Virus record (IMG/VR): IMGVR_UViG_3300023179_000348
Location: 1-31,069 of that record
Reading direction: 5' to 3' (one strand)
Source: a virus
DNA length: 31,069 bases
A model generated the notes under the pieces. The model did not search any database, was not told where the DNA came from, and was given only the letters and a program-made list of their open reading frames with translations. Positions 1-24,124 of this stretch are shown here, one piece after another. The number at the start of each line of letters is the position of its first letter. Position 1 is the stretch's first letter. The translations under genes and the position numbers were made by a program.

Positions 1-1580
1 CATAAATAGCTTTATCATTCGCAAGATCAATACTCATTGTTTCCCAATGAGCAGATTTTGTTCCCCAATTACGAGCATCATCACGCTTAAACTTAAAGAT
101 TTGAGAAGAATGTTTTGGATTCTTTGGAGCAACAGATGAATTACCAGAGCTAACTTGCTGAATACTAATTTTTTCATAATCAGAAAGTTTAAGATAATTC
201 TTATCTACAAGACCAAGTGATTTGTCAAATGTCGTTCTATCGGCATCAGTCTTAAATGTGATAACATACGCACCATCAATCTGATCGCCAAGCTGATTCC
301 AAAGGGTTGCTAATCTGAAGGTTACACCTTGCATAGAACCAGTATCATTAACTAAAATCTTGTGAGATTTCTCGCAAATAATTCTAGAATCTTCTGCTTC
401 TGAAACTAGCTTGGTGCTTCTACGAGATTTTTGATAAAACCTCACCACAACCTCACCAGCACAAACTTTGTCTATAATAGTTTTGCTGAACGAAATAATA
501 TGATCGTTAATAGTTTTACCATTCCATTGAATTTTATTATTCAAAGAGCTACGAACAATATAGCCTAAACTACCATAAGTTCCAAATACTTCTTGGTATA
601 AACACTTAACATCAAAGATGTTATCCGAAGCCTTGAATTGATTTGAGATTGATTCTGCAATCTCTTGTTTTACTTTCTTGAATTTAGCTCTGATAGCTTT
701 CTTGGTCTTGTCAGTATATTCAAGACTTTCACGACTTGCAGTAATATCTAGTTCGCCAAGATCAAAGTCTACTTCAAAACCTTGATTGCATAGACTCTCT
801 AGCTCATCGTCATTAAAATCTACATCGCTAGTATCAATACCATAGCCAACGCCCATAACTGCAACAGAGTTAGAACGACTATAATAATCGCCCTTCTCGC
901 TATAATAACGCCAGCTTTTACCTTCAAATACAGGTTTGCGATCATAAATCTTTGCTAGTTCATCTTTACTTGCACCTTTAATAATTGGCTTGTTCCTAAA
1001 GTGTTTGAATAAATTAATCGCAGTATTCAAAAAGGTTTGAGTATCATCTTCACGAATAGGCACAGAAATCATAACGCCAGAAGGTTCAGAAGATTTTTCC
1101 TCCTTGAGCTTTACGATCTTGCCGATTTTAGTCTCATCAATAAAAGCATTATAAGTGGTTTTCTTTCCAGCGTGATATGAAATTAAAACAAAGTTATCAC
1201 CATAACTGAATGGTGCAAACTTGCCAATGCCATAATAACCGATAGCAGAATTATTGTTACGCTTTGTGGATTCACCATAAAAACAATAAAGATTCTTAAT
1301 ATCATCAGCAGAAAGCCCATTACCAAAATCTCTGATAGTTAAAGTGGGGTCGAGCTTCGTAGGAAGTTTAACTTCAATAGAACGCTTGCTATTTGCTTCG
1401 ATATTAGCGTCTTGTGCATTACAAGCGATCTCACGCAAAACTGCGAGAGGCTTATTGGAATACAACTGATTACGAAGAATGTTAAAGATATAAGGAAGTC
1501 CAGATTGCTTGATTCCAAAACTTACAGACTCAAACTTATCAGACTCGACTACATTGATTGGTTGTTCGATTAATTTCATA
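1..1580 (-). CDS. rIIA: RIIA-like GHKL ATPase (3' end outside window)
   Basis: Open from ATG at 1580 to the window edge, about 526 residues visible with no stop. The N-terminal 130 residues carry a Bergerat (GHKL) ATP-binding fold: N-box with E50 and N54 (REIACNAQDA), G1 box DFGNG at 84-88, and G2 lid GYYGIGKFAPFSY at 114-126. The order and spacing match T4 RIIA, as does a later DITASRESLEYTD block near 278-290. RIIA is an early membrane-associated protein of T4-like phages involved in rapid lysis and exclusion phenotypes; its biochemical role is poorly defined. It is preceded by its own TTGACA-17-TAAATT promoter ending 6 nt before the ATG, with no Shine-Dalgarno. Identification rests on motif order recalled from T4, not on a search. 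Confidence 0.85.
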
Positions 1581-1586
1581 TATTGA

Positions 1587-1615
1587 ATTTAAATTGATTT
1601 TAAATTAGTGTCAAA
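1587..1615 (-). promoter_or_regulatory. Sigma70-type promoter of rIIA, leaderless arrangement
   Basis: On the minus strand: TTGACA (1615-1610), 17-nt spacer, TAAATT (1592-1587), then 6 nt and the ATG of rIIA at 1580. The expected start site falls on the A of ATG. Confidence 0.75.
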
Positions 1616-1622
1616 TTTTATT

Positions 1623-2738
1623 TTATTCGTAGCTATCTCTATCAATAGCAATCACATAAGGAAATCTTGGAACATCATCTGGAGTATAATTAAAGAATTT
1701 TATTGTAGCTTTTTTGCCTATAAGTTTATTTTTATCTTTCAGTAATTGAGTAAGATATTTAAAATCTCCTTTAATATTACTTTTAAATGTTTTGCCGTGT
1801 TTATTTTTGAACACCATAAATCCAGCGGTTCCCTTTCTATTGCCTTCTCCTTCTATAACTCCTTGAATTACAAATTCTTCATCCATAAACTCTTTTCTTT
1901 TAAGAAGATTTTTACTACGCTTATTTTCATATTCTTTATTTAACCTAACCATTTGTCCTTCATACCCTTGATCCATATACATTTCATAGGCTTCATCAAG
2001 TTCTTCTTGTTTATTTACTTTTAAAGTAGTTACCACTTTAATCTTTTTATATTGATTGCTCTTTTTAAGAGAATCCAATACTAATTCATATCTTTCATAA
2101 AAAGAATTATTTTGAGAAATCACTCCAATTTTAGGAGCATCATATACCCAATACTCAATAGTTTCTGCACTTTCTTCTAAATCTTCATCAGTAGGCTTAC
2201 TCTTTTTCACAAGAGAAACAATTTTATTAAAATCATTTGCTAACTTGTCACAATATAATTCTCCGTCAAGAATAGCATTGGGATAATCTTTAAAAAACTT
2301 TTCTAAATTTTCCCTAATATGTGGAGCAGAAAGAATTTTCTTTCCGTTACGAGAAAACATACCATCTTTAGTTGTGATACAACGAATCCCATCTAATTTA
2401 GGTTGAGAATATACAGGAAAACTAACATCATAATCGTCATATTTATGAGCAAGCATAGGCTCAAAATATTGTTTTTTATTAATATCTTTTATATCTTCAA
2501 AATAACCAGATTCAAGTTTCTGCTTACGCTTTGCCTCTGCCTCTTTGAGAGCTTGTTCTTCTGGAGTAGTAGCGTTTGCTCTGCCAGCATTTTTTACATC
2601 ACAATCTGTCCACTCATTAACAATCTTCTCGCCATCGGTATGACCAGAAATTGTGCGATATTGATTTCCTTTGACTTCAATAGTCCATTCTTGTATTTTG
2701 CCAGTTTTTGTCTTTTTGTAAATTGTAGGTAACTTCAT
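1623..2738 (-). CDS. ATP-dependent DNA ligase
   Basis: 371 aa. It seals nicks through a lysyl-AMP intermediate, serving phage replication and repair. Nucleotidyltransferase motifs are in order: motif I KLDGIR 114-119 (adenylated Lys114), Ia SRNGK 129-133, III DGE 158-160, IIIa YWVYDA 196-201, IV EGQMVRL 260-266 and V LLKRKEF 278-284. A C-terminal OB-like domain of about 85 residues follows. The first 80 residues form a small domain rich in aromatic and Lys residues that could be WGR-like; this is seen in some phage ligases and is a guess here. The length is typical of compact phage ligases. It has its own promoter at 2745-2773, lying in the end of the upstream AbrB-like gene. Confidence 0.93.
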   Translation of the reverse strand: MKLPTIYKKTKTGKIQEWTIEVKGNQYRTISGHTDGEKIVNEWTDCDVKNAGRANATTPEEQALKEAEAKRKQKLESGYFEDIKDINKKQYFEPMLAHKYDDYDVSFPVYSQPKLDGIRCITTKDGMFSRNGKKILSAPHIRENLEKFFKDYPNAILDGELYCDKLANDFNKIVSLVKKSKPTDEDLEESAETIEYWVYDAPKIGVISQNNSFYERYELVLDSLKKSNQYKKIKVVTTLKVNKQEELDEAYEMYMDQGYEGQMVRLNKEYENKRSKNLLKRKEFMDEEFVIQGVIEGEGNRKGTAGFMVFKNKHGKTFKSNIKGDFKYLTQLLKDKNKLIGKKATIKFFNYTPDDVPRFPYVIAIDRDSYE

Positions 2739-2744
2739 AGTCTC

Positions 2745-2773
2745 AGTTTATACTGGACTAGCCAACTTGTCAA
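2745..2773 (-). promoter_or_regulatory. Sigma70-type promoter of the DNA ligase
   Basis: TTGACA (2773-2768), 17-nt spacer, TAAACT (2750-2745), 6 nt, ATG 2738. The -35 lies over the last bases of the preceding coding sequence, so the ligase can be transcribed apart from the upstream genes. The -10 is weaker than TATAAT. Confidence 0.65.
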
Positions 2774-2958
2774 ATTTTGTTTTTTTTTGATTTAGAAGGA
2801 GTTGCAACTTTAAGCAAACTCCAAGTTCCATCTTTATTATCGTGCCAATCAATAGTATCACCGATTTTCCAACCCATCTTTTTTAAAAGAGAATTTGGCA
2901 ACTCTATATATTGATAGCCATTTTCCTCTTTTATTTCAAGAACATGAGGTTTTTTCAT
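2770..2958 (-). CDS. AbrB/MazE-type swapped-hairpin DNA-binding protein
   Basis: 62 aa. The pattern IELPNSLLKKMGWKIGDTI followed by a short acidic loop and WSLLKV is the SpoVT-AbrB signature: two strands, the turn with the GWKxGD element near residues 29-34, and a closing strand. Such proteins dimerise and bind DNA as transition-state regulators or antitoxins. No toxin partner is recognised next to it, so a stand-alone regulator is more likely. Its start overlaps the stop of the 220-aa gene upstream (ATGA, 2955-2958), implying coupled translation. The Lys-rich C-terminal tail (about 10 residues) could add non-specific DNA contact. Confidence 0.7.
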   Translation of the reverse strand: MKKPHVLEIKEENGYQYIELPNSLLKKMGWKIGDTIDWHDNKDGTWSLLKVATPSKSKKNKI

Positions 2959-3617
2959 CTTGGAGTTAAAACCTTAACAAGAAATCTCATTCCCCTCCAA
3001 TTAATCCATTCTAATGCTCTGATAAGTTTTGTAATAGACCTTTGAATCTTCCAGCTAATTTTCTCAACCGAGCGAACATAATAATTAAAATAAATCCTAT
3101 AAATTGGACAACGCATTTTTCTTTCGTGACTTGCGATCTCTAATTCTAATTTTATTTCGTTTTCAATTCTATCTTTACTAGGATATTTGGTATATTCTGG
3201 AAGAATAGTCAATTCTTTTACTTCTCCATTAACCACAACCGCTTTCCAATCTGGATAAAAATCTGTGCCATCAATATTATCACCATTTACAATGCAACCA
3301 AAAATAAAAGTGCCAGTATAATCATCACGAAACTTATCATACTTTTTATCAACAACAAATTTCTCCTTCCAAAAAGAAGAAGGTCTTGAGCCATAAAACT
3401 TTTTACTTTCTTTAACTTCATCCTCTGTTTTATCCTCATAATGACCTTCTGTTATTTCTTCATACAATTTGTTATCTTTTAAAATATAAGTAGAAAGACA
3501 ATTATCTTCAAGTTCTTTAGTTTGAAATTCCATATCACGCCAATTATGATTTAGGGTTCTTAATGTAGCGTCAAGAGGAAGCTCTTGTTCTACTCTTACA
3601 TAATTAAATAATCCCAT
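2955..3617 (-). CDS. Hypothetical phage protein, MGLFNYV-type N-terminus
   Basis: 220 aa, function unknown. It begins MGLFNYVRVEQELP, like a widespread group of phage early proteins that start MGxFDYI and carry a short acidic 'xLP' segment. The middle is acidic and aromatic (residues 60-130), and the C-terminal 50 residues are basic with several Arg/Trp (RSITKLIRALEWINWRG). No catalytic motif, signal peptide or membrane helix is recognised. It leads a two-gene unit with the AbrB-like protein (ATGA overlap). A textbook promoter (TTGACA-17-TAATAT) ends 6 nt before its ATG, which fixes the start. Confidence 0.8.
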   Translation of the reverse strand: MGLFNYVRVEQELPLDATLRTLNHNWRDMEFQTKELEDNCLSTYILKDNKLYEEITEGHYEDKTEDEVKESKKFYGSRPSSFWKEKFVVDKKYDKFRDDYTGTFIFGCIVNGDNIDGTDFYPDWKAVVVNGEVKELTILPEYTKYPSKDRIENEIKLELEIASHERKMRCPIYRIYFNYYVRSVEKISWKIQRSITKLIRALEWINWRGMRFLVKVLTPR

Positions 3618-3623
3618 ATAATT

Positions 3624-3652
3624 ATATTATAAATAGTTTCTTTGTTTGTCAA
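3624..3652 (-). promoter_or_regulatory. Sigma70-type promoter of the 220-aa gene
   Basis: TTGACA (3652-3647), 17 nt, TAATAT (3629-3624), 6 nt, ATG 3617. It lies within the last 26 bases of the upstream coding sequence. Confidence 0.75.
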
Positions 3653-4014: not shown

Positions 4015-4487
4015 AGTTGTTCTAGTTCAGATATTGATAAATTATAACAATCGGCTTTAAATGTCCAACCTAGATGAGATTTCTCATCTACATCACCTTT
4101 TTTACAAAATCTTGCTTCTTTAAAATAATCATTTTTCTTTTTCTTGCCAAGAATCCACGCTTTAGAAAAATGATCTATTACTCTTACAAAAACATAATAA
4201 TTACAATCTTGTTTTGTATTAAAATCTGAAACGCTACAATCATATTCTGGTTTAGGTTTTGAAGTGCAACGCTTTGTTTTTACTTCATATTTAATACCAT
4301 CTTTTTCTACATCAAAATCATAATTATCTGGTTCATTTGCTTTTAAATATTCTGCAACTAACATTTGACCAATGTAACCAGCAATATTACCTCCACCTTT
4401 TGTGATAGAATTATATAATCTGCCAAGACTTCTGGCTTTTTGTCTTGCCTTAACTAAAATTTCATCTGATATTTCTAATTCAATCAT
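4011..4487 (-). CDS. PD-(D/E)XK-like nuclease
   Basis: 158 aa. An N-terminal helical part includes GGGNIAGYIGQMLVAEYL (residues 31-48), whose Glu is typical of the first helix of this fold. It is followed by DFDVEKDGIKYEVKTKR near 57-73: an acidic residue, a strand and an E-V-K triad. That E-x-K motif with upstream Asp is the PD-(D/E)XK active-site pattern. A hydrophobic strand (YYVFVRVID, 97-105) and a Trp/Ile strand follow, as in the fold. The substrate is unknown; it could be repair, recombination or host DNA degradation. It overlaps UVDE upstream (4484-4487, ATGA), which favours a DNA-processing role. The assignment is to the fold, not a named enzyme. Confidence 0.65.
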   Translation of the reverse strand: MIELEISDEILVKARQKARSLGRLYNSITKGGGNIAGYIGQMLVAEYLKANEPDNYDFDVEKDGIKYEVKTKRCTSKPKPEYDCSVSDFNTKQDCNYYVFVRVIDHFSKAWILGKKKKNDYFKEARFCKKGDVDEKSHLGWTFKADCYNLSISELEQL

Positions 4488-5383
4488 AGCTTTGCAAAAG
4501 ATTGTTCTTTCATTTTTAATTCAAAATCAACATCTACATTGTGTCCGTATGTATCGGGCAAACGAGTAGCGTAATCTGCGTGTTTGCGTGGATTCTTATG
4601 TCCAACAATACTTTCTGAATAATGAAACAATGGAGTATGATTGCCCCAAGTAATTCGTGCTAGATGAAATGCTTGTTCCTCTGATAGATTATCTGGATGA
4701 CATTTGTGATGAAGATAATCAAAAGTAATAGGAATATTCGAAACAGAATGAAAGTGTCTCATAAGTTTCTTGATTGACCAACAAGTATCTTTATCGTCAT
4801 TTTCTATAACTAATCTAGATTTAACATCGTTGCTCAATCTATCAAAGTTACTCATAAACTTTTTTACTACATCGTTAAGATTACCTCTTGCATTATGTAT
4901 GTGCATATTCATAGGTGCATCATAATTAAGTGGACAACCAATTTGCGTCATAAACCAACCATAGTGATTTAATTCTTTGATTGTTTTATCTACTGCATTG
5001 TCGTTATCACTAGCAAGAACATTAAATTCGCTAGGATGACAAGAGATGCGAACATTAGTAGATTGAACTAACTTTTTGATATTATTAAATTGATCTACAA
5101 TTCTATTGTAGTCTGGTAAATCTTGTAATGTTACATTAGCTTTATCATAAGTAATAAGAGGAAATAGATCAGAAGAAAGCCTATATGTATGATTATGGTC
5201 TGCACAATATTTGATATAGTGATATGATGTAATCATATTGTTAAGTATTCTAGAGGAAAGAGAAGATAACGCTTCTTGTCTTGGTAGACTAGAAAATCTA
5301 CTATAAGTCATAGTATTAAACTTGATTGGTTCATCTCTTTCTGCAAGAGATAAGACAATACAACAAACACCTTTTCTGTTCAT
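4484..5383 (-). CDS. uvsE: UV damage endonuclease (UVDE/UvsE family)
   Basis: 299 aa, about the length of the catalytic core of UvsE. The family is a TIM-barrel metal enzyme that nicks DNA 5' to UV photoproducts and other lesions. Metal-site residues are seen in order: SCHPSEF with H116 and E119; MHIHN with H161/H163; IENDD with E194-D196; FDYLHH with D222, H225-H226; and HYSES from H254. The N-terminal strand is GVCCIVL (5-11), typical of the family. It heads an operon with the PD-(D/E)XK protein, the 44-aa membrane peptide and the cysteine-rich protein. Its promoter TTGACT-17-TAATAT ends 6 nt before the ATG, with GGTAGG immediately before the start. Confidence 0.93.
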   Translation of the reverse strand: MNRKGVCCIVLSLAERDEPIKFNTMTYSRFSSLPRQEALSSLSSRILNNMITSYHYIKYCADHNHTYRLSSDLFPLITYDKANVTLQDLPDYNRIVDQFNNIKKLVQSTNVRISCHPSEFNVLASDNDNAVDKTIKELNHYGWFMTQIGCPLNYDAPMNMHIHNARGNLNDVVKKFMSNFDRLSNDVKSRLVIENDDKDTCWSIKKLMRHFHSVSNIPITFDYLHHKCHPDNLSEEQAFHLARITWGNHTPLFHYSESIVGHKNPRKHADYATRLPDTYGHNVDVDFELKMKEQSFAKL

Positions 5384-5389
5384 CCTACC

Positions 5390-5418
5390 ATATTAAATTA
5401 ATATACAAGAATAGTCAA
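5390..5418 (-). promoter_or_regulatory. Sigma70-type promoter of UVDE
   Basis: TTGACT (5418-5413), 17 nt, TAATAT (5395-5390), 6 nt, ATG 5383. Confidence 0.72.
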
Positions 5419-5429: not shown

Positions 5430-5606
5430 TTATTTATAAATATATGTAGATGAGCCATTTTGTTTTTTTAATTCTTTTTTAATCAATGACTTATCTTTTT
5501 GATTTGTCCAATTTATACTATCATAGTTTTCTTTAAACCTGTCAGAGAAACAATTTCTTGGTCTGTCTCCTTTTCCAGCTTGCTTATTTGGCATTTTTTC
5601 GTTCAT
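5430..5606 (-). CDS. 58-aa phage GKGDxPR-type protein
   Basis: An uncalled small gene in a 378-nt gap. The protein contains MPNKQAGKGDRPRNCFSD followed by RFKENYDSINW. This matches a very common small phage protein with the pattern GKGDKPRPVxxxxYxENYDxIxW, of unknown function. The start is ATG 5606 or the in-frame ATG 5594; the latter gives the usual M-x-N-K-Q start. The 5' end of the gene is itself one copy of the degenerate 31-bp repeat that continues upstream. A TTGACG-17-TAAAAT promoter lies at 5666-5694, leaving a leader of about 55 nt, unlike the leaderless neighbours. Confidence 0.75.
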   Translation of the reverse strand: MNEKMPNKQAGKGDRPRNCFSDRFKENYDSINWTNQKDKSLIKKELKKQNGSSTYIYK

Positions 5607-5760
5607 ATTTGGGATTTTTCTGTTAGCAAATAGACTTATTTGGGATTTTTTTGTTCGTAAATAGGATTTTATTATAAAATTATATTTTCGTCAATAATAT
5701 ATTTGGCGTTTTTCTGTTAGCAAATTGATTTATTTGAAAAAAAATCATTCGTAAATTGTA
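5585..5760 (-). repeat. Degenerate tandem repeat, about 31-bp period
   Basis: Copies are anchored by TATTTGG (plus strand) at 5585, 5606, 5637 and 5700, and TATTTGA at 5731. Each is followed by a T-run and then TTAGCAAAT, TTCGTAAAT or similar, so most units can fold ATTTG against CAAAT. Spacings are 21, 31, 63 (two units) and 31. The first copy is the 5' end of the 58-aa gene, so the array looks like decayed tandem duplications of that end. The missing unit between 5637 and 5700 is where the promoter lies. Confidence 0.6.
5666..5694 (-). promoter_or_regulatory. Sigma70-type promoter within the repeat array
   Basis: TTGACG (5694-5689), 17 nt, TAAAAT (5671-5666). The -35 occupies the place of the TTCGTAAAT segment of a repeat unit. 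It would drive the 58-aa gene. Confidence 0.6.
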
Positions 5761-5761
5761 A

Positions 5762-5986: not shown

Positions 5987-6586
5987 TTAGATTACACAAT
6001 TAAAATAATATTTCATATCATGATCTTCGGATTTCTTTCTATAAATAATGCCAAAAATTTTTTGTTCTTTTAAATATTTTATATTTAAAATTTTTATTTT
6101 TTTTGATTGAAATTCAATATCCAAAGTTGGATTTTCAAATTTGGATAAGGCAAGATCTTTTGCATCTTTTGTTATTGGAATATATTTTGAATATTTATTT
6201 AATATATATGGATCATTATATTTTTTCTGCTTATATATTTGATTAATAATATTTTCTTTTTTTGTTAAATCTTCAACAAAAACTATATGCCCAAAATGAT
6301 TTTCATTTAGAGAAAAATCATACATTTTATCTGTAGAATTATTTGGAATTTTTGATTTCCTAAATTGATATTTTTTAGAAAAAAAAGAATTCCAAAAATC
6401 AAAATCTTTGCTATCTAAATAAAGATCAATGTCTTTATGGCATCTATAAATTTTTTTATAATATAAGGCTATAGCTAATCCGCCTCTTAAAATATAAAAT
6501 TTATTTGTTTGAATTATTTCGGTTAATATGTTTAATAAATCAATATTTTTTTGACATTTCGATTCGTCATTAATGAATAAGTTCAT
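5987..6586 (-). CDS. Nucleotidyltransferase-fold protein (AbiEii/lincosamide NTase-like)
   Basis: 199 aa. The fold signature is GGLAIALYY (35-43) followed by HKDIDLYLD (50-58), the GG/GS and DxD metal-binding pair (D52, D54) of Pol-beta-like nucleotidyltransferases of the AbiEii/MNT/LinB type. A downstream acidic strand (FGHIVFVEDL, about 104-113) could supply the third carboxylate. These enzymes transfer NMP to small molecules, tRNA or proteins. No partner antitoxin is recognised. It overlaps by 17 nt a second, different nucleotidyltransferase (6570-7100); having two in tandem is unusual. The target is unknown. Confidence 0.7.
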   Translation of the reverse strand: MNLFINDESKCQKNIDLLNILTEIIQTNKFYILRGGLAIALYYKKIYRCHKDIDLYLDSKDFDFWNSFFSKKYQFRKSKIPNNSTDKMYDFSLNENHFGHIVFVEDLTKKENIINQIYKQKKYNDPYILNKYSKYIPITKDAKDLALSKFENPTLDIEFQSKKIKILNIKYLKEQKIFGIIYRKKSEDHDMKYYFNCVI

Positions 6587-8599: not shown

Positions 8600-8607
8600 G
8601 ATTACAC
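8600..8607 (-). promoter_or_regulatory. GTGTAAWW motif (candidate late promoter), 69-aa gene
   Basis: GTGTAATC on minus, followed by 6 nt and ATG 8593. No TTGACA 17 nt upstream; that region is the tRNA 3' half. Confidence 0.45.
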
Positions 8608-8614
8608 CATTAAT

Positions 8615-8702
8615 TGGAACGAGTAGGATTCGAACCTACGGATGATATTAAACCATCGGAAGTTTAGTAAACTTCTGCTTTAGGCCACTCAGCCATCGTT
8701 CC
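8615..8702 (-). tRNA. tRNA-Ser, anticodon ACU
   Basis: A full cloverleaf on the minus strand. Acceptor GGAACGA pairs with TCGTTCC (7 bp); D arm GGCTGAGTGGCC; anticodon stem GAAGT/ACTTC around loop TTACTAA, giving anticodon ACU; long variable arm with GATG/CATC; T arm GTAGG-TTCGAAT-CCTAC. The long variable arm fits a serine tRNA and ACU reads AGU. The discriminator is A and no CCA is encoded, so the host CCA enzyme must complete it. It lies 2 nt after the purA stop and is probably co-transcribed with it. Bacterial AGY tRNAs normally have GCU; A34 is odd. Confidence 0.93.
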
Positions 8703-8704
8703 AG

Positions 8705-9700
8705 TTAAATATTTTCTTTATTTCCAGAAAATATAGTATCTATTTTACATTTATCTTTAATTGTTTCAAAAATAAATTTTTGCATTTCTTCCAAAGATTC
8801 AAACGCCATATAATCAAATCTTTGGGGATTAACTATAATTTTATATATACCAACTTTTTCTAAAATATCACATTTATTTAAAATTAATTTTGTTGTTCCA
8901 GATGTATTAATTGCATAAATTAAATGATCTATTCTTAACCAATTTGCAATTCTTGTTCTTCCAGTAGTAGTACCAAATTCATTTCCTGCTTCAATTAATT
9001 TACTTTCTTCTGGCATATTTATTAAAAAATCTGGAAATAAAGGATCTACCCCACTTTTTGTGTCATATATTTTTGCCACTCCAATTATGTCTCTAATAAG
9101 TTTAGGAGAAAATCCGAGAGAACAAGCTGAATATGGTAGTGTCTCGCTACTGGTGACATAAGGATAATTTCCATAATTAATATCTAACCAAAAACTTTGA
9201 GCACCTTCGCAAAGGATATTCCCATAAAGTTTACCATCCCAAATGTATTTTTTATCAATATAATCTATAGCTCTTTTACCTTTTCTTAGCATTTTATCAG
9301 AATAAGCTGGAGCTATGCCTTGTCCAGTAGTGCCTAATTTTCTTTGTAAATATAATTTATCATATATAATATGTCTCTGAGTAATTATATTTGCCGCGGG
9401 GCTTACTTTAATAAGAGAAGTATCAAATCCTTCTTTATTTAAATAATCAATTTCATCATAAAATTTATCTATATTAATTACGCAATTTGGGCCAATAATA
9501 CTTAGTTTATTTTGAAAAATGCCACATGGAATAATATGTGTTTTATATTTTTTATTTCCTAAATAAACCGTATGCCCTGCGTTTGGTCCACCATTCCAAC
9601 GACAAACAATATCATAATTTTTAGATATCGCATTACTTATCTTTCCTTTTCCTTCGTCTCCCCAAGATAAACCAAAAATAATATCAACCGCTTTGATCAT
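8705..9700 (-). CDS. purA: Adenylosuccinate synthetase (PurA), phage form
   Basis: 331 aa, about 100 shorter than cellular PurA (about 430). It couples GTP hydrolysis to condensation of IMP with aspartate. Seen: WGDEGKGK 13-20 including the catalytic Asp (D15, equivalent to E. coli Asp13); NAGHT with His43; TTGQGIAPAYSDK; EGAQSFWLD; YPYVTSSET; GTTTGRTRIANW; and LNKCDIL for guanine recognition. PurZ of 2-aminoadenine phages is related and similarly short but, as I recall, lacks the catalytic Asp; its retention here favours IMP as substrate. It overlaps the SEC-C-like gene by 17 nt. With the GMP-reductase-like gene at 23027 it would route GMP toward AMP, using host PurB for the last step. Confidence 0.92.
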   Translation of the reverse strand: MIKAVDIIFGLSWGDEGKGKISNAISKNYDIVCRWNGGPNAGHTVYLGNKKYKTHIIPCGIFQNKLSIIGPNCVINIDKFYDEIDYLNKEGFDTSLIKVSPAANIITQRHIIYDKLYLQRKLGTTGQGIAPAYSDKMLRKGKRAIDYIDKKYIWDGKLYGNILCEGAQSFWLDINYGNYPYVTSSETLPYSACSLGFSPKLIRDIIGVAKIYDTKSGVDPLFPDFLINMPEESKLIEAGNEFGTTTGRTRIANWLRIDHLIYAINTSGTTKLILNKCDILEKVGIYKIIVNPQRFDYMAFESLEEMQKFIFETIKDKCKIDTIFSGNKENI

Positions 9701-9938: not shown

Positions 9939-9967
9939 ATTCTATAATATATTTAAATAAAAGTAAA
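9939..9967 (-). promoter_or_regulatory. Sigma70-type promoter of the SEC-C/purA unit
   Basis: TTTACT (9967-9962), 17 nt, TAGAAT (9944-9939), 6 nt, ATG 9932. The -35 is weaker than in other cases. Confidence 0.55.
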
Positions 9968-9980: not shown

Positions 9981-9988
9981 GTGTAATT
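9981..9988 (+). promoter_or_regulatory. GTGTAAWW motif (candidate late promoter), 331-aa membrane gene
   Basis: GTGTAATT, 5 nt, ATG 9994. No good -35 upstream. Divergent from the purA-unit promoter at 9939-9967. Confidence 0.45.
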
Positions 9989-13756: not shown

Positions 13757-13785
13757 ATTATATCGTGTAAATATTTATATGCCAA
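13757..13785 (-). promoter_or_regulatory. Possible sigma70-type promoter reading into ribozyme copy 1
   Basis: TTGGCA (13785-13780), 17 nt, TATAAT (13762-13757) on minus; predicted start near 13750. It overlaps the start codon of the divergent gene, so part of the match may be coincidence. An alternative TTGTAATA (13706-13699) resembles the late motif. Confidence 0.4.
13765..13772 (+). promoter_or_regulatory. GTGTAAWW motif (candidate late promoter), 193-aa structural gene
   Basis: GTGTAAAT, 6 nt, ATG 13779. It supports this internal start over the longer reading frame that runs back through the ribozyme. Confidence 0.5.
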
Positions 13786-14954: not shown

Positions 14955-14962
14955 TATTACAC
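14955..14962 (-). promoter_or_regulatory. GTGTAAWW motif (candidate late promoter), cysteine-rich B
   Basis: GTGTAATA on minus, 6 nt, ATG 14948. It is part of TATAGTGTAATA, which recurs exactly before the gene at 15941. Confidence 0.5.
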
Positions 14963-15342: not shown

Positions 15343-15350
15343 ATTTACAC
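15343..15350 (-). promoter_or_regulatory. GTGTAAWW motif (candidate late promoter), coiled-coil membrane gene
   Basis: GTGTAAAT on minus, 6 nt, GTG start at 15336. Confidence 0.45.
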
Positions 15351-15952: not shown

Positions 15953-15960
15953 TATTACAC
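15953..15960 (-). promoter_or_regulatory. GTGTAAWW motif before the 80-aa gene
   Basis: GTGTAATA on minus, within the same TATAGTGTAATA 12-mer found at 14955-14966; the ATG (15941) is 11 nt further on, so a short 5' leader is expected. Confidence 0.35.
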
Positions 15961-17027: not shown

Positions 17028-19283
17028 TTACAATTTACACGCACCAGAAGAACAATCCCTATCTTCTTTTTGATTCATAAGCTGTTCTTTATCGCCATCA
17101 TCTGTATTATTATAATATAAACTGATTAAGCCTAAAGAATAGGCGTGCATAATTTCTTTCATAACTTTTGCGTCTGGCAAAACATGGTTTTCATAGTGTG
17201 AATAATTATAGTATACATTAGTTGATATGGCCATGTCAATGTATTTTTGAATAATTGCATTTATTTTAAGCAAGCCAGAATTATCTTTTAAATCATAAGC
17301 TAATTCATAATTTTTTTCATATTTACCTATTCCCGGAACTAATACTGGAAGTTTACCCATTTTACTCATTTTATATGTTATAAGACTGCGAATTGGTTCT
17401 ACTCCATTAGTAGAAGATTGAATTACAGAACTGCTTTCACATGGCATGCAAGATGATAATGTTGAATGTCTTAAACCAAATTCTTTAATATCTTTTCTTA
17501 TTTTTTCCCAATCAAGAGATAATTTTCTTTTACATATTTCATCTATTTTATCTTTATATGTATCAATGGGCAGTATACCTTTAGAATATTTAGTATGATT
17601 AAATTTTTCGCATTTACCTTTTTCTTTTGCAAGATCTAAGCTTGATTTTAAAAGATAATATTGAAAATGTTCCATCCATTCATCTAATATTGGAAGGGTT
17701 TTATCGCAAGTATATTTTAATTCATTTTTAGCAAGATACGCAGCTAAATTTGTTATACCTATGCCAAGACTACGGCGTTTTTTAGCAAAATTTTCAGCAG
17801 CAATATTAAAATAATCTTGAATTTCAATAATTTCATCAAGAAATCTTACAATAAGATCGCAAGTTTTTTCAAGATCTTGCCAATTTTTAATCTCTAACAT
17901 ATTTACAGCCGAGAGAATACACATCCCAATTTCACCTTCTTTATCGTGATAATCATTTAATGGAATAGTAGGATGAATAACTTCAGTACAAAGGTTACTC
18001 ATAGTTACTTTATCTAACCATGCTCCATGATTATTCGCATGATCTACATTAAGAATATAAATCCTTCCTGTTTCAACTCGCTCTTTAATTATTAAAGAGA
18101 ATAATTTTCTTGCAGATATTTTTTTCTTAATTTTTATTTTTTTAGATTCACATTCTTTATATATTTTATCAAAGTCTTTTGTACCCCAAGCTTCATAAAG
18201 CTCTGGCACTTCGGCTGTATTAAATAAAGTGATATCTTCGTCTTTTAATACTCTATCATAGAATAGTTTACTCATTCCAATAGTATAATCAAGTTTGCGA
18301 ACTCTATTATCGTCTGTTCCAGCGTTATTTTTTAATACAACAATATCTTCAATTTCATAATGCCACCATTGAATATTGCAAGTAGCACTACCTCCTCTTA
18401 ATCCATTTTGTTGCCACGCTTTAACGCTACTTTCATATATTTTAAGAAATGGTATTAATCCAGTATGAACTACTTCTCCATTTTTTATAGGCGCACCGAT
18501 TGCTCTTATTTTAGAAACATCTATACCAATACCACATCTACTCGCGGTTGCCATGCTAACAGCAGTTGCACTAGCTGTAATACTATTACGAGAATCATCC
18601 ACTCCAATCAAACAACAACTTGCATAATTTTTACTTGGAGTTCTAACTCCTGCCATAACTGGCGTTGGAAGATTAATTTTATGTTTACTAATTGCGTCAT
18701 AGAATTTTCTTACATAATTCAATCTTGTTTCTTTTGGATAATTTATGAAAGCGTAAGCTGAAATCAAGACATAAGCAAACTGTGGTGTTTCGTATATTTT
18801 ACCAGTAACACGATCTTTAATTAGATATTTATCACAAAGTTGCTTTATACCAGCATATGTAAAATGATAATCTCTTTCATGATCAATAAATTCTCCCATT
18901 TTATTCAATTCATGTTCATCATATTTTTCTAAAATAATTGGATCATAAATTTTATTTTTTAAACCTTGATTAATAAATTCCAAAAGACGAGGAGCATGTT
19001 TTCCTTTCCATACATCTTTCCTTAATTGATAATTTAATAATCTTCCAGCTACATATTGATAATTTGGTTTTTCTATACAAATTAAATTTGCTGCAGATTC
19101 AATCAAAAGTTTATGTATTTCTTTTGTAGCTACACCATCATTAAAATTAATTTTTGCATTTATTTCAATGTCTGTTAAACTTACGTTAGATAAGTCTTTT
19201 ATCGACCAATTTATTACTTTATGAATTTTTTCTATATTAAATTTTTCTAATGAGCCATTTCTTTTTTTTACTTTTATATTCAT
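17028..19283 (-). CDS. nrdA: Ribonucleotide reductase class Ia, alpha subunit
   Basis: 751 aa from ATG 19283; the open frame reaches TTG 19295, but the four added residues match nothing and the ATG gives the usual start before KVKKRNGS. It reduces NDPs to dNDPs. The N-terminal ATP-cone (residues 1-90) is present, so dATP feedback may be kept, unlike many phage RNRs. Active-site cysteines are in SCCLIG, NLCTEV and MCILSAVN; the radical-path Tyr pair is in LYYNN; and the C-terminal shuttle pair CSSGACKL matches E. coli CESGACKI. Motif order matches E. coli NrdA throughout. It uses host thioredoxin/glutaredoxin unless one is encoded elsewhere. Confidence 0.96.
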   Translation of the reverse strand: MNIKVKKRNGSLEKFNIEKIHKVINWSIKDLSNVSLTDIEINAKINFNDGVATKEIHKLLIESAANLICIEKPNYQYVAGRLLNYQLRKDVWKGKHAPRLLEFINQGLKNKIYDPIILEKYDEHELNKMGEFIDHERDYHFTYAGIKQLCDKYLIKDRVTGKIYETPQFAYVLISAYAFINYPKETRLNYVRKFYDAISKHKINLPTPVMAGVRTPSKNYASCCLIGVDDSRNSITASATAVSMATASRCGIGIDVSKIRAIGAPIKNGEVVHTGLIPFLKIYESSVKAWQQNGLRGGSATCNIQWWHYEIEDIVVLKNNAGTDDNRVRKLDYTIGMSKLFYDRVLKDEDITLFNTAEVPELYEAWGTKDFDKIYKECESKKIKIKKKISARKLFSLIIKERVETGRIYILNVDHANNHGAWLDKVTMSNLCTEVIHPTIPLNDYHDKEGEIGMCILSAVNMLEIKNWQDLEKTCDLIVRFLDEIIEIQDYFNIAAENFAKKRRSLGIGITNLAAYLAKNELKYTCDKTLPILDEWMEHFQYYLLKSSLDLAKEKGKCEKFNHTKYSKGILPIDTYKDKIDEICKRKLSLDWEKIRKDIKEFGLRHSTLSSCMPCESSSVIQSSTNGVEPIRSLITYKMSKMGKLPVLVPGIGKYEKNYELAYDLKDNSGLLKINAIIQKYIDMAISTNVYYNYSHYENHVLPDAKVMKEIMHAYSLGLISLYYNNTDDGDKEQLMNQKEDRDCSSGACKL

Positions 19284-19307
19284 AAATCTAAACAACTTAG
19301 AACCTAA

Positions 19308-19315
19308 TATTACAT
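19308..19315 (-). promoter_or_regulatory. Possible GTGTAAWW-like motif before nrdA
   Basis: ATGTAATA on minus. The predicted start near 19301 gives an 18-nt leader, so this is not the leaderless layout; no good -35. Confidence 0.25.
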
Positions 19316-19368
19316 TGATTTTAACTTAAATAAAAGAAAAAATAAAAATGTTACAAACAATTGTCTTC

Positions 19369-19713: not shown

Positions 19714-19714
19714 A

Positions 19715-20806
19715 TCATGTTTTTAATATATTTAAAATATTATTCACAAATTTTTCAGCAGTAAATTCATTTTGAATTTTAAGTCCATTAACATTAATAG
19801 GATTAGATTCGACTCTTTTTATGGCTTGCTCGCATCCATTAATGAATTCATCATCATCAAAAATAAATATATTGCCTTGGTTAAAAGGTTGACCTTTATT
19901 AAAAAAAGCTCCATCATACGCTTCTATTTTAGAGGATGGATTTATTAAAACTGAATTATCTTTATTTGCCCATTCTTTATATGAATGTGCGTTAAGTATT
20001 ACTGCATGTTTACCAATTCCTACAGAATGAAATTCTGGTAATCCCCAACCTTCTCCACCGCTAACTCCAATTATAATATGTGCGCTATTTAAATAATCAT
20101 TATACATGCTATTTTTAGGCATAAATCCAAGAAAAGATATATTAAAATAATTTTTACCTTCAAGTATATCTAATATAAGTTTTTGATTATCTTCTTCTTT
20201 AAAAAATGGATTATATATTGAGCATTGAAGATGATAGTTTGGATTATTCCCAAACCTTTTAGCCCATGCTTGTATAACTTTTTTATGATTTTTTCTTTTT
20301 TCTAATTTGCCAACAAGATTAAAAACAATTCTATTGTCATCAAAATATTTTTTATCTATTCTTTTAAAATTATAATTATCAAAAGCTAATCCTAAATATT
20401 CTACATTATTACATCCAACTGATTTAAATGTATCAACAGTATACTTAGAAGAAAAGAAAACTTTATTTTGATTTTTTACTATATTTATTTCTTCGGCTGT
20501 AGGATTATCAAGTTCATAAAATGATAATAAATATCTTTTATCTGAAAGAGATTCAATAGATCCATTTAAATGCCATAATTTAAAACATGGATATTCTCTT
20601 TTTATTTTTGATAAAAACCCTGTGGATTTTTCTTGAATAAATTTTGCAAAATGCTCATCTATATCTTGAGATGATAAATCGATTCTATCCCCTATTGGGT
20701 AGAGGATAAAATCGTTTATATTTTTTCTATATAATTCTCTTAATATTAATGTCGAAACCTGTCCAAAACTTACGCTATTAACAGGTAAGTGAAAAGTTAA
20801 ACTCAT
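19715..20806 (-). CDS. GT-B glycosyltransferase (GT4-like)
   Basis: 363 aa. The C-terminal donor domain is clear: FNLVGKLEKRKNHKKVIQAW (162-181) begins the Rossmann half, and GVSGGEGWGLPEFHSVG (247-263) is the sugar-nucleotide loop with the conserved EGWGLPxxEA-type motif (here E258 then H). The N-terminal acceptor domain has VSFGQVSTL near 12-20. It transfers a sugar to an unknown acceptor such as cell-envelope glycan, virion protein or modified DNA base. No base-modification partner is seen. It overlaps the DUF736-like gene (ATGA, 20803-20806) and belongs to that promoter's transcript. Confidence 0.9.
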   Translation of the reverse strand: MSLTFHLPVNSVSFGQVSTLILRELYRKNINDFILYPIGDRIDLSSQDIDEHFAKFIQEKSTGFLSKIKREYPCFKLWHLNGSIESLSDKRYLLSFYELDNPTAEEINIVKNQNKVFFSSKYTVDTFKSVGCNNVEYLGLAFDNYNFKRIDKKYFDDNRIVFNLVGKLEKRKNHKKVIQAWAKRFGNNPNYHLQCSIYNPFFKEEDNQKLILDILEGKNYFNISFLGFMPKNSMYNDYLNSAHIIIGVSGGEGWGLPEFHSVGIGKHAVILNAHSYKEWANKDNSVLINPSSKIEAYDGAFFNKGQPFNQGNIFIFDDDEFINGCEQAIKRVESNPINVNGLKIQNEFTAEKFVNNILNILKT

Positions 20807-21123
20807 AGAATATCTTCATTATCGCTTTCCGTTTGAGAAACAACTTTAGATTTAACTTTTGGATTTTGAGGCTTTTCTACTTCTTGCTTTGCTTGAACGG
20901 CTCCGACTTCAAGTGGCTTAGATACGTATATTCTATAATCTGGAGCCTTGTCATTACTTTTATTTGTGTTTGCAAATACGACAACTTTGATTTCTTTTTC
21001 TAAACCAAGATCGTCTACTTTTACATACCCAGATAAGAATGACATGCCACTCTTACTTTTCTTCTTCCAAAGAGCTCCAAGCTCATCTTTTTTATTGTTG
21101 TTATTTTGTTGTGTATTATTCAT
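20803..21123 (-). CDS. DUF736-like small phage protein
   Basis: 106 aa from ATG 21123. A longer frame exists to 21159, but that start would lie inside the -35 of a good promoter (21131-21159) and is rejected. After an Asn/Gln-rich leader, GALWKKKSKSGMSFLSGYV (residues 17-35) and KVVVFANTNKSNDKAPDYRIYVSKP (46-70) match the beta-barrel DUF736-type pattern 'G..WK..S..G..YLSG' and 'KAPDYRVY'. The acidic tail (QTESDNEDIL) resembles the C-terminal tails of single-strand DNA-binding proteins, which may be functional. Role unknown. Confidence 0.78.
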   Translation of the reverse strand: MNNTQQNNNNKKDELGALWKKKSKSGMSFLSGYVKVDDLGLEKEIKVVVFANTNKSNDKAPDYRIYVSKPLEVGAVQAKQEVEKPQNPKVKSKVVSQTESDNEDIL

Positions 21124-21130
21124 AATATAT

Positions 21131-21159
21131 ATGATATCCTTTATATTAAATTTTGTCAA
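21131..21159 (-). promoter_or_regulatory. Sigma70-type promoter of the DUF736/glycosyltransferase unit
   Basis: TTGACA (21159-21154), 17 nt, TATCAT (21136-21131), 7 nt, ATG 21123. It lies in the 3' end of the sigma-factor gene. Confidence 0.72.
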
Positions 21160-21736
21160 ATGAAATTGTACTTGAAACTTTTTTATTTAAAAATTTTAAA
21201 GCTTTATTATGAATATTAATAACTGTTTGAGTACTTATATTCATTTTTTTACCTATTTTATTCCAAGGTTGATTTTTTGCGCAAGTAAAATATCTTAAAT
21301 TAAATATTTTTTTTATCCTAGAATCATTCATTTGATCTAATATATCGAAAATTAAATCTATCTTTTCTTTGTTTATCATTGAATTATCTATTTGTTTTGA
21401 TTGATTACTTTCTGTAAGATATTTTATGTTATCATTTTCCATAGAAATATCTTTGCTTTGTCTGTTAAAAGTATTCAAACAGTGATACCTCATTTGATTA
21501 TATAACCATGTTGAAAATTTTATTTTTTTATTTCTTTTAAAGGACAGGGCTGATTTATATACTACATAAATTTTTTCATTATTAAGATCTTCAAATGATA
21601 CTCCTATTTCATAACATGTTTTACAATATTTTTGCAAAGCTTTATTGCAAATTCCTTGATGACGATTATATAATTCTAATAAACTTTTTTCGCAATTAAG
21701 TTTTTTAATTTTTTGTATTAATTGTAAGTCTGTCAT
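21146..21736 (-). CDS. Phage RNA polymerase sigma factor (sigma70-type, short)
   Basis: 196 aa. The region-2-like segment spans about 15-95: ICNKALQKYC, VSFEDLNNEKIYVVYKSALSF and then KFSTWLYNQMRYHCLNTF, the F-x-T-W-x-x-x-x-R-Y pattern of region 2.3/2.4. The region-4 helix-turn-helix spans about 140-190: RIKKIFNLRYF, then PWNKIGKKMNISTQTVINIHNKALKFL. The size and split layout resemble T4 gp55, the late sigma factor. It is the best candidate to read the GTGTAAWW motif seen before structural genes. It overlaps the dNMP kinase by 32 nt, so it is co-expressed with early DNA metabolism genes before the late phase. Confidence 0.88.
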   Translation of the reverse strand: MTDLQLIQKIKKLNCEKSLLELYNRHQGICNKALQKYCKTCYEIGVSFEDLNNEKIYVVYKSALSFKRNKKIKFSTWLYNQMRYHCLNTFNRQSKDISMENDNIKYLTESNQSKQIDNSMINKEKIDLIFDILDQMNDSRIKKIFNLRYFTCAKNQPWNKIGKKMNISTQTVINIHNKALKFLNKKVSSTISFDKI

Positions 21737-22298
21737 ATATACTCCTTAAATTTTTCTGCATTAACTCGTATAAAAAATTTGTATCTTGACAAGTATCCCA
21801 ACATATTGAAAAATCTGCAACAGCTTTTAATTTATTATCATTTGATTTTTCTTCAATATTTGCAGGTGGCACTAAACTACCATCGTCAAGTTTTCTAGAT
21901 ATATGTATTAATATACCATCGTGAGATTTAAGCCAAGAATATTCATCATCTTTATATTCTATATATCTTATATCAGTTATAACTGGAACAATTTTTTGTT
22001 TAACTAATTCCTTGACTTTTGTATTTACTAAAGATGTCCAATATTTGCCTTCAGTTTGAACACGCCTGCATTTACCATATGAGACCATTAGAGGTCTTAT
22101 GAGTTCTTTATCTGCTCCATCGCATTTAAATAAATCAATATTAAATTTTTCTTTTACAAAAGGACCTAGCTCTTTTTTTAGATCATCTGCTAAAGCTATT
22201 CTCTCTGAATTTATTTTTCTTTCTTCTAGAAATTTTTTAAGTATCAAGTAAAATGTATCTTTACCTGATCTAGCTACTCCTGTTATACCTATAACCAT
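21705..22298 (-). CDS. Deoxynucleoside monophosphate kinase (T4 gp1-like)
   Basis: 197 aa. The P-loop is GITGVARSGKDT (4-15). Later features are YGKCRRVQTEGKYWTSL, with basic residues for the phosphate and lid, and PVITDIRYIEYKDDEYSWL (104-122), a Walker-B-like strand with a D-x-R pair, as in phage dNMP kinases. It converts dNMPs to dNDPs, linking dCMP deaminase/thymidylate output and salvaged nucleotides to dNTP synthesis. It is first gene of the unit with the sigma factor. The promoter TTGACA-17-TATGAT ends 6 nt before the ATG. Confidence 0.88.
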   Translation of the reverse strand: MVIGITGVARSGKDTFYLILKKFLEERKINSERIALADDLKKELGPFVKEKFNIDLFKCDGADKELIRPLMVSYGKCRRVQTEGKYWTSLVNTKVKELVKQKIVPVITDIRYIEYKDDEYSWLKSHDGILIHISRKLDDGSLVPPANIEEKSNDNKLKAVADFSICWDTCQDTNFLYELMQKNLRSIYDRLTINTKN

Positions 22299-22304
22299 GA
22301 TAGC

Positions 22305-22333
22305 ATCATACCAAAGATAAATATTATTGTCAA
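22305..22333 (-). promoter_or_regulatory. Sigma70-type promoter of dNMP kinase/sigma unit
   Basis: TTGACA (22333-22328), 17 nt, TATGAT (22310-22305), 6 nt, ATG 22298. Its -35 overlaps the -35 of the divergent promoter. Confidence 0.8.
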
Positions 22334-22355
22334 TATTTTTATATATAAATATAAT
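22327..22355 (+). promoter_or_regulatory. Divergent sigma70-type promoter of the 118-aa membrane gene
   Basis: TTGTCA (22327-22332), 17 nt, TATAAT (22350-22355), 5 nt, ATG 22361. The two -35 boxes share the near-palindrome TATTGTCAATA. Confidence 0.7.
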
Positions 22356-22360
22356 ATTAT

Positions 22361-22717
22361 ATGGTTTTTGATATCATATCTATATCTAGTATCTGTGCGT
22401 TCTGTATATTTTTATGGTTTAAAACTAATTTTTTTTATGAGTATATAAAACTATTTAAATTAAATAAATTAAATATATTTAATTCCTACGAAGAATTTAT
22501 AAAAAATACCTATACTTATTTTGCTACTTTTTTAGGTTTTAAAAGTAATTTTTTTTGCAAACTATTAAGTTGTCCAATGTGTTTGAATTTTTGGGTCGTA
22601 TTAGTTAATATGATTATATTTAAAATTTCTTTATACTATATTGGGCTAATATATATAATATCTTTAGGTGAATATATGTGTTTATCAATAATACTATCAA
22701 AATATGAAAATAGTTGA
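22361..22717 (+). CDS. Membrane protein with SCPMCLNFW motif (DUF1360-like)
   Basis: 118 aa. Three hydrophobic segments (about 3-19, 74-92 and 93-111) lie around LLSCPMCLNFWVVL (68-81). The C-P-x-C-x-x-FW motif at the edge of a membrane helix is the DUF1360 pattern, known in many bacterial and phage inner-membrane proteins of unknown function. The two Cys could be redox-active or bind metal. It is the first gene after a divergent promoter pair and overlaps the next gene by 14 nt. Confidence 0.72.
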   Translation: MVFDIISISSICAFCIFLWFKTNFFYEYIKLFKLNKLNIFNSYEEFIKNTYTYFATFLGFKSNFFCKLLSCPMCLNFWVVLVNMIIFKISLYYIGLIYIISLGEYMCLSIILSKYENS

Positions 22718-22991
22718 ATTTAAAAGCGTAGAAAATTTTATATCATTTCTTAAAACTAATATTGCTAATGAAAAAATAAAAGAATTAATACCGATCATAG
22801 ATCATTACCATGGAATTAGCCAAGGATGTGGATGTAAAAGAAATGAAAGAATAAATATTTTTAAAAGTTATTATGAAAATAAAATTTTAAATCTTTCATG
22901 CGATATAGTAAAAGAAATTAAATCTATTTTTCCAGCGGATACTATAATTTTTTATAAGTACGAATCAGAAGAAGTATTAAAACAATTTTAA
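22704..22991 (+). CDS. Small phage protein with GCGCKRNER motif
   Basis: 95 aa. HGISQGCGCKRNERINIFKSYYEN (36-59) is the hallmark: a Gly/Cys turn with basic residues followed by an amphipathic helix. I recall similar small proteins (SGCGCKKxxR...YE) from many large phages, all of unknown function; the Cys pair plus His could bind a metal. The rest is mixed helix and strand. It is translated with the 118-aa membrane gene (14-nt overlap); its stop falls at the -35 of the next promoter. Confidence 0.72.
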   Translation: MKIVEFKSVENFISFLKTNIANEKIKELIPIIDHYHGISQGCGCKRNERINIFKSYYENKILNLSCDIVKEIKSIFPADTIIFYKYESEEVLKQF

Positions 22992-23020
22992 TTGACATAT
23001 TTGTATAAATCGAATATGCT
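22992..23020 (+). promoter_or_regulatory. Sigma70-type promoter of the GMP-reductase-like gene
   Basis: TTGACA (22992-22997), 17 nt, TATGCT (23015-23020), 6 nt, ATG 23027. Confidence 0.78.
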
Positions 23021-23026
23021 TTAGAT

Positions 23027-24124
23027 ATGTTTAAAGAAGCTTTAGGATACGAAGATATTTCATTACTTCCAAATTTCTCAAATATTTCTTCCAGAAAAAA
23101 TGTTTGCACAATAACAAAAATTTCAAAATCTAAATATATAGATATACCAATTATACTTTCTCCAATGGATACAGTATCCTCTGTAAAAAGTTGCATAAAA
23201 ATTAATCAAATTGGAGGCGCTGGAGTCCTTCATCGCTTTATGTCAATCGAAGATCAAGTTTTAAAATCTAAAAAAATAAAAAATGAAAGTAATTTTTGCA
23301 TTAATGCAATTGGATTAAAAGATGCTAAAGAAAGAATCGAATCTTTATCTAAATATACTGATATATTCTTCCTAGATACCGCTAATGGTTTGTCTTCAAA
23401 TGTTGAGGATTTTTTAATTGAATATAAACAATCATCTCATTGGCAAGATGTAATTGTAGGAAATACTCTTACTAAAGAAAGCGTTTACAGATTAGCTAAT
23501 TTAAAAGCAGATGGTTTCAGACATTTAATTGGTCCCGGATCAATGTGTTTAACTCAAGTAAAAACTGGTATTGGATGTCCAAGCGTTACTGGATTATCTT
23601 ATGCTTGGAAAGCTGTTAGAAATTTTCAATTAGCGAATCTTGACTATTTTCGTCACGAAGACCCAAGAGAAGAAGATCGTCCAAGTATTTTAGCTGATGG
23701 TGGGATAAGATATCCAAAAGATCTAGCAAAAGCTATAGCTAGTGGTGCTGACGCTGTGATTTGTGGTAGAATTTTTGCTGGCTTAGCTGATATAGCTGAT
23801 GAAGAAAATATTATAGAACAAAATGGTAAAAGATATTTTAAATATAGAGGTATGGCAAGCAAAGATGTAGTCCAAGATTACGACCTATATGATGGATCAA
23901 AAAAGAATTTATTTGTAGAAGGTGATAATACTTTAATACCAATCATCGAAAATAAAACTATTGAAGATGTTGTATATGATTTTGTAAATGGTCTAAAAAG
24001 TTCTATGAGTTATTTAGGATTTTCTAACATTGAACAAATGCGTGGTGGTTTATGGACTGGCAAAATTAAAGCCGTTAGAGTTACTGCGAATAATTTATAC
24101 GAAGGATTTGCTCATGGAAAATGA
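23027..24124 (+). CDS. IMP dehydrogenase/GMP reductase family enzyme, GMP-reductase-like
   Basis: 365 aa TIM barrel without CBS domains, the length of GMP reductase (about 346). Seen: SPMDT (45-49), LDTANGLS (116-123) with the ANG signature of GMP reductases rather than the AHG of IMPDH, active-site loop GPGSMCLTQVKTGIGCPS (169-186) with catalytic C174 and T176, ADGG near 230, and EQNGKRYFKYRGMAS. The IMPDH flap Arg-Tyr pair is not found. The usual HK dyad lysine is Arg (LHRFMS), an oddity. As GMP reductase it turns GMP into IMP plus ammonia using NADPH, feeding the phage PurA. IMPDH cannot be excluded. It has a strong leaderless promoter. Confidence 0.83.
   Translation: MFKEALGYEDISLLPNFSNISSRKNVCTITKISKSKYIDIPIILSPMDTVSSVKSCIKINQIGGAGVLHRFMSIEDQVLKSKKIKNESNFCINAIGLKDAKERIESLSKYTDIFFLDTANGLSSNVEDFLIEYKQSSHWQDVIVGNTLTKESVYRLANLKADGFRHLIGPGSMCLTQVKTGIGCPSVTGLSYAWKAVRNFQLANLDYFRHEDPREEDRPSILADGGIRYPKDLAKAIASGADAVICGRIFAGLADIADEENIIEQNGKRYFKYRGMASKDVVQDYDLYDGSKKNLFVEGDNTLIPIIENKTIEDVVYDFVNGLKSSMSYLGFSNIEQMRGGLWTGKIKAVRVTANNLYEGFAHGK

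Follow-up and report, generated by a model that had tools for sequence, protein, structure and literature searches.

Leaderless transcripts as a reading of start-abutting promoters

Where does an mRNA begin, and how is it translated, when the promoter ends only a few nucleotides before the start codon? This question is raised by a 31,069-bp IMG/VR virus record (the window, i.e. the whole stretch of DNA analysed), in which sigma70-type promoters (TTGAC-16/17-TANNNT) lie directly upstream of several genes. Sigma70 promoters normally start transcription 6-7 nt after the -10 element. A sequence-only reading of the window had listed nine such promoters, with 6 nt between the -10 element and the ATG at rIIA, ligase, the 220-aa gene, UVDE, SEC-C, dNMP kinase and GMP reductase, 7 nt at the DUF736-like gene and 5 nt at the 118-aa gene, and all nine were found again at these distances when re-read from the sequence. 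A single position was corrected: the rIIA ATG had been put at 1580, but its A lies at 1579, and the 6-nt distance stays right. The promoters and the genes behind them are as follows.

1586..1614, minus: rIIA promoter, TTGACA (1614-1609)-17-TAAATT (1591-1586)-6-ATG (1579)
3..1579, minus: rIIA-like gene, running off the left end of the window
2745..2773, minus: ligase promoter, TTGACA-17-TAAACT-6-ATG (2738)
1623..2738, minus: ATP-dependent DNA ligase (phrog_114, E 2e-77)
3624..3652, minus: promoter of the 220-aa gene, TTGACA-17-TAATAT-6-ATG (3617); alternative register TTGACA-15-TATAAT-8-ATG
5390..5418, minus: UVDE promoter, TTGACT-17-TAATAT-6-ATG (5383)
4484..5383, minus: UVDE-like gene (phrog_8420, E 9e-44); the name UVDE is that of the earlier reader, and the PHROG annotation is 'endonuclease'
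9939..9967, minus: weak promoter of the SEC-C gene, TTTACT-17-TAGAAT-6-ATG (9932)
21131..21159, minus: promoter of the DUF736-like gene, TTGACA-17-TATCAT-7-ATG (21123), within the end of the sigma gene
22305..22333, minus: dNMP kinase promoter, TTGACA-17-TATGAT-6-ATG (22298)
21705..22298, minus: dNMP kinase-like gene (weak match to Pfam DNMK/P-mevalo_kinase)
22327..22355, plus: promoter of the 118-aa gene, TTGTCA-17-TATAAT-5-ATG (22361)
22992..23020, plus: promoter of the GMP reductase-like gene, TTGACA-17-TATGCT-6-ATG (23027)
23027..24124, plus: IMP dehydrogenase/GMP reductase-like gene (PF00478, E 3e-65)

The description of these genes as lead genes holds for some of them, while the promoters of the ligase, 220-aa and DUF736 genes are located within the preceding gene or at its 3' end. 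The divergent promoters of the genes starting at 22298 (minus) and 22361 (plus) overlap and share a near-palindromic -35 (TTGACA/TTGTCA) at 22327-22333. One leadered exception was seen at 5607-5665: between TTGACG-17-TAAAAT and the ATG at 5606 lies a leader of about 58 nt, in which an AACA..AAAAATCCCAAATA unit is repeated. A good TTGACA-17-TAAAAT at 26695 (minus) is intergenic with no obvious gene behind it, and could give an antisense or small RNA product.

It was concluded that these promoters very probably serve leaderless mRNAs, or mRNAs with a leader of 1-3 nt. According to this mechanism, the RNA polymerase of the host, carrying its housekeeping sigma, would bind TTGAC-16/17-TANNNT and start about 7 nt after the -10 element, on the A of the start codon, and the resulting 5'-AUG would be loaded through a 70S or an IF2-dependent leaderless route.

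Distribution of promoter-to-start distances

In the window, 7 of the 44 starts called by the gene caller of this analysis have TTGAC-16/17-TANNNT ending 5-7 nt upstream (positional rate 5.3e-4, binomial P ~5e-16), and the same arrangement occurs at 0 of the 1034 ATGs outside the called starts. Counted from the promoter side, there are 11 such sites in the window; an ATG-opened reading frame follows within 40 nt in seven cases, always at 6 or 7 nt.

The sequence-only reading itself had named the absence of a genome-wide 6-nt peak as grounds for its rejection. The peak is present: the distance from the -10 element to the ATG was counted over seven related records (the window and the six relatives whose sequence was read, 811 kb), and the window and every one of the six relatives showed a sharp 6-nt mode. 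With spacers 16 and 17 taken together, an ORF-opening ATG was found 100 times at 6 nt and 27 times at 7 nt; spacer 16 gave 53 and 10 cases at these distances, and spacer 17 gave 47, 17 and 9 cases at 6, 7 and 8 nt. At 6 nt, 0-3 cases were obtained when the spacer was 15, 18 or 19 nt or the -35 word was scrambled, and 3-8 with the near-consensus -35 words TTGAA, TTGAT and TTTAC. Therefore, the spacer is 16 or 17 nt, and the constant 17 nt of the sequence-only reading describes the window examples but not the genomes at large. The exact pattern TTGAC-18-TANNNT-6-ATG had 72 matches in ten records, and its reversal had none.

A start-centred count, which makes no promoter assumption, was carried out on 450 lead genes. 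TANNNT ended 6 nt upstream of the start in 24% of them, as compared with roughly 6% elsewhere, and TTGAC exceeded 1% only at positions -34, -35 and -36. The frequency of TANNNT centred 10-12 nt before the start was above that of positional controls, as in bacterial leaderless genes of the TA-led kind. When the -35 was relaxed, 134 of 484 lead genes qualified, against 12-19 in controls shifted by 8 nt or more; the counts are not independent, because the seven genomes are related, and 86 distinct N-termini are represented among 135 sites. A T at position -1 was considered as an initiator signature and dropped, because its frequency in the abutting set (73%) is nearly equalled in internal genes (65%).

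Conservation of the distance in orthologs

Scans for rIIA and for GMP reductase returned 24 loci each, some of them on contigs as long as 172 kb. In each of the 24 rIIA relatives, TTGAC-17-TAWATT-6-ATG is retained, with the sequence further upstream differing. The ligase promoter stands at 6 nt in 6/6 orthologs, including one (G001) that starts with GTG at the same distance. The UVDE promoter is at 6 nt in five of six orthologs, and that of the 220-aa gene is 6 or 7 nt away, again in five of six. The GMP reductase genes of six genomes have six unlike promoters and differing N-terminal codons, and the distance is 6 or 7 nt in all six; where this gene lies inside an operon on other contigs, no promoter was seen. 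The SEC-C site, with its weak -35 (TTTACT), is kept in only one of the five orthologs found.

Some orthologs have lost the promoter. The DUF736 orthologs that have it show distances of 6-9 nt, and those in G002 and G003 lack it and carry AAGGAG; the dNMP kinase orthologs have the promoter at 7 nt or, in G006 and G003, no abutting promoter and a Shine-Dalgarno (SD) sequence instead (AAGGAG and GGAG being the words seen at these losses). It was thus confirmed that an ortholog either retains its abutting promoter or, in some cases of loss, shows an SD. Among ortholog pairs with an identity below 0.4 in the 35 nt upstream, the promoter distance agreed within 3 nt in 29 of 32 and within 1 nt in 22; in pairs above 0.6 it was identical in 85 of 88.

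A second promoter class

When words were counted by position upstream of lead genes, a second element emerged, GTGTAAT, which starts at -15 to -14 and whose distance to the start codon has its mode at 7-9 nt. No conserved upstream element or -35 was found in 64 aligned GTGTAAW sites, as in a phiYS40-like class with a single -10-like element. It is found upstream of conserved GTG starts as well, 7-8 nt away. Its occurrences in the window are listed below.

5991..5997, minus: GTGTAAT, 10 nt before ATG 5980
8601..8607, minus: GTGTAAT, 7 nt before ATG 8593; the G006 ortholog has a GTG start at equal distance
9981..9987, plus: GTGTAAT, 6 nt before ATG 9994
13765..13771, plus: GTGTAAA, 7 nt before ATG 13779
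14956..14962, minus: GTGTAAT, 7 nt before ATG 14948
15344..15350, minus: GTGTAAA, 7 nt before the GTG start 15336; orthologs in G002, G003, G004, G006 and G008 retain both GTG and 7 nt
15954..15960, minus: GTGTAAT, 12 nt before ATG 15941
17034..17040, minus: GTGTAAA, 9 nt before the nrdB ATG 17024; partly constrained by coding, because it lies inside the 3' end of nrdA
21146..21736, minus: phage sigma factor containing regions sigma2 and sigma4, a candidate for recognising GTGTAAT

Before several large or putative structural genes, the element stands 13-23 nt from the start, and SDs are common at distances of at least 17 nt. Altogether, 52 of the 484 lead genes have GTGTAAW at 6-10 nt, and 184 have a promoter of either type. 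The leaderless reading of the window was supported by the distance peak, the lack of SDs and the orthologs, but it had been drawn too narrowly; abutting placement is not confined to the sigma70-type, presumably early, set, because GTGTAAT promoters also lie 7-9 nt before starts. The early timing claimed for that set remains an assumption, as does exact leaderlessness, since leaders of 1-3 nt would fit too.

GTGTAAT is probably read by the phage sigma factor, and transcription from it would start on, or 1-2 nt before, the AUG or GUG; the class may be a late one. The sigma protein of the window matches sigma profiles and is represented by an ortholog in each of the six relatives read, and a PDB search with its structure model (pLDDT 74) ranked sigma factors at the top. 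Matches to the Pfam sigma model were obtained in 9 of 11 records, several of which have a second, longer sigma-like protein (G004 142061, G001 17842, G006 17335 and G008 19631); that of G004 is located about 2.5 kb ahead of the gene for the large terminase. No phage RNA polymerase was found among the larger proteins scanned with Pfam, a scan that was not exhaustive.

Further features of these genomes were observed. The window carries a tRNA-Ser with the anticodon ACT, unusual for bacteria, at 8614-8703, and at 8705-9700 an adenylosuccinate synthetase-like gene (phrog_1211), which is named PurZ and has WGDEGKGK as in PurA. Together with the GMP reductase-like gene (23027-24124), the latter possibly provides a GMP-to-AMP route suiting an AT-rich genome. 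The replicase encoded by phages of the clade is like bacterial DNA polymerase III alpha (L052:14244-16826), not like the T4 polymerase. In an 809-aa protein (L054:847-3276), PEP-CTERM and autotransporter repeats were weakly matched, which may point to the host; a host search in which genome contigs were scanned with the rIIA alignment and NrdA gave no match.

Shine-Dalgarno sequences and promoter distance

The sequence-only reading had also stated that genes with abutting promoters have no SD. This was borne out, and the presence of an SD was found to vary with promoter distance. An SD-like word accompanies 9 of 125 starts (7%) with a sigma70-type promoter at 5-7 nt and 11 of 27 (41%) with one at 17-40 nt; for GTGTAAW, the corresponding values are 3 of 41 (7%) when near and 19 of 32 (59%) when far. 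Over both promoter types, SD-like words range from 0-11% at abutting promoters to 41-59% at distances of at least 17 nt. The SD is thus largely missing in the abutting class and present in other classes of one and the same genome, which is the pattern of TA-led leaderless genes. Internal genes had been described as coupled by ATGA overlaps or provided with their own ribosome site; the coupling exists but is partial (157 of 1011 same-strand neighbours), and an SD-like word precedes 171 of 540.

Since SDs occur with distant promoters and in internal genes, the ribosomes used by these phages appear to read them, and it is the abutting promoters that would go without. SD-led initiation would then be kept for downstream operon genes and for genes with a promoter at least 17 nt away, and so leaderless starting would be chosen promoter by promoter. 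Phage homologues of S21 and IF1 were sought and none was found.

Alternative explanations

Compact packing could push promoters onto genes, in which case 6 nt would be a side effect and very short leaders would be translated by ordinary non-SD initiation. The genomes are indeed dense, the sites of several promoters extend into the 3' end of the preceding gene, and a leader of 1-3 nt remains compatible with the data. Packing, however, predicts a spread of distances, whereas the counts observed were near zero at 0-5 nt and had a mode one nucleotide wide; 100 kb of T4 has no such mode, and SDs appear once promoters sit at least 17 nt away. This explanation is therefore considered improbable. Less likely still is that the called start codons are wrong and that the true starts lie downstream, behind ordinary SD leaders. 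Start calling is error-prone in uncultured phages, but the N-terminal rIIA residues, counted from M1, do not vary among 14 relatives, GMP reductase N-termini vary in length with each start still at 6 or 7 nt, and GTG replaces ATG at the equal position in orthologs, the ligase of G001 among them.

Coincidence deserves mention because TANNNT is common in DNA of 28% GC, so that 6-nt distances are expected by chance, and TANNNT by itself is found at about 6% of the positions preceding lead genes. Once the -35 is included, the low positional rate and its P value in the window, the empty count at other ATGs, the lack of any reversed match in 10 records and the 0 cases at 6 nt for scrambled -35 words make chance a negligible candidate. 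Leaderless or nearly leaderless transcription thus stays the preferred reading.

Comparison with known systems

The Thermus phage phiYS40 is said, in work of Sevostyanova et al. from 2007, to have -35/-10 promoters and a second class in which one -10-like element stands alone. When it was scanned as a positive control, 8 of 33 sites stood at 6 nt. Its middle and late transcripts are reported to be leaderless (PMC3594737). The clade of the window resembles phiYS40 in the 6-nt peak, in being composed of large AT-rich phages and in the second, single-element promoter class, and the two have homologues of GMP reductase/IMPDH, dCMP deaminase, DnaB and dNMP kinase in common. It differs in that its second element is GTGTAAT, sigma-like genes are present and leaderless placement dominates the -35/-10 class. 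Common descent was rejected, as only metabolic and replication genes match and no structural-gene similarity was seen.

In bacteria, TANNNT about 12 nt upstream is an accepted sequence mark of leaderless genes (PMC3160421), and TA-led leaderless genes with a -10 motif are described from Deinococcus (PMC12340547). The clade is like these in that TANNNT stands some 12 nt upstream of starts more often than by chance and with no SD, and unlike them in that the genomes are those of AT-rich phages, the -35 is strong and most recognised promoters have the leaderless architecture.

Among phages, the PRM promoter of lambda cI abuts the AUG and gives a leaderless mRNA. Lambda has been named as the first leaderless case (PMC3160421). 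There, a single regulatory gene is concerned, whereas the clade would have a genome-wide programme.

T4-type late promoters consist of a -10-like element, TATAAATA, without a -35, and are read with the sigma factor gp55. The GTGTAAT class is similar in its -10-like element, the lack of a -35 and the phage sigma factor, but its motif differs, no TATAAATA peak was found in the clade, and T4 late elements mostly lie 14-29 nt before the ATG. The 100 kb of T4 scanned as a negative control had no 6-nt sites. Membership in the T4-like phages, suggested by rIIA and RNR, was rejected, since rIIA gave the only match to the 100 kb of T4 compared and the TATAAATA peak is missing. The SAR11 phage HTVC008M was considered as the nearest isolate and was also rejected; its architecture differs, because its sigma70-type sites peak at 11-12 nt, and the protein matches to the clade are mainly RNR, PhoH and a weak TerL, with no capsid or tail match. 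In HTVC008M, TATAAATA was seen exactly 5 nt before the ATG in five cases, an arrangement that would give leaderless late mRNAs there as well.

Occurrence beyond the clade and implications

A neutral IMG/VR sample was composed of loci fetched by 3- or 12-nt patterns, with perfect-consensus sites of the fetched kind excluded. It showed a sharp spike at 6-7 nt (27) and a broad hump at 20-40 nt (161), a proportion that is reversed in the clade (127 and about 46). Among the matches listed, the ATG opened a reading frame of at least 50 codons in 65% at 6 nt, as compared with 28% at 3 nt, 46% at 9 nt and 25% at 12 nt; at 30 nt the value was 73%, and 69 of these 102 cases had an SD-like word (background 22%). 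Among the contigs listed for the 6-nt pattern, a single one is close to the clade (at least 60% identity over 100 aa), and hence the 6-nt feature is wider than the clade, its dominance being particular to it.

Leaderless genes have been described in phages before, mostly as isolated examples or in a single Thermus phage; no description of leaderless expression in such a phage clade was found in the literature searched, the coverage of which was incomplete. On balance, we favour the view that leaderless starting is the default for operons in the whole clade, in both sigma classes, and that promoters firing at the start codon are general and have been overlooked in environmental phages.

The promoter-to-start distance allows leaderless expression to be read out from sequence alone, in many uncultured phages and for two promoter classes, and it can be used to correct start-codon calls in phage metagenomes. 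The internal contrast, with SDs accompanying only the far promoters, leads to a testable statement on how ribosomes are recruited during infection. The findings suggest that, in many environmental phages, the first genes of operons are expressed with the Shine-Dalgarno step bypassed.
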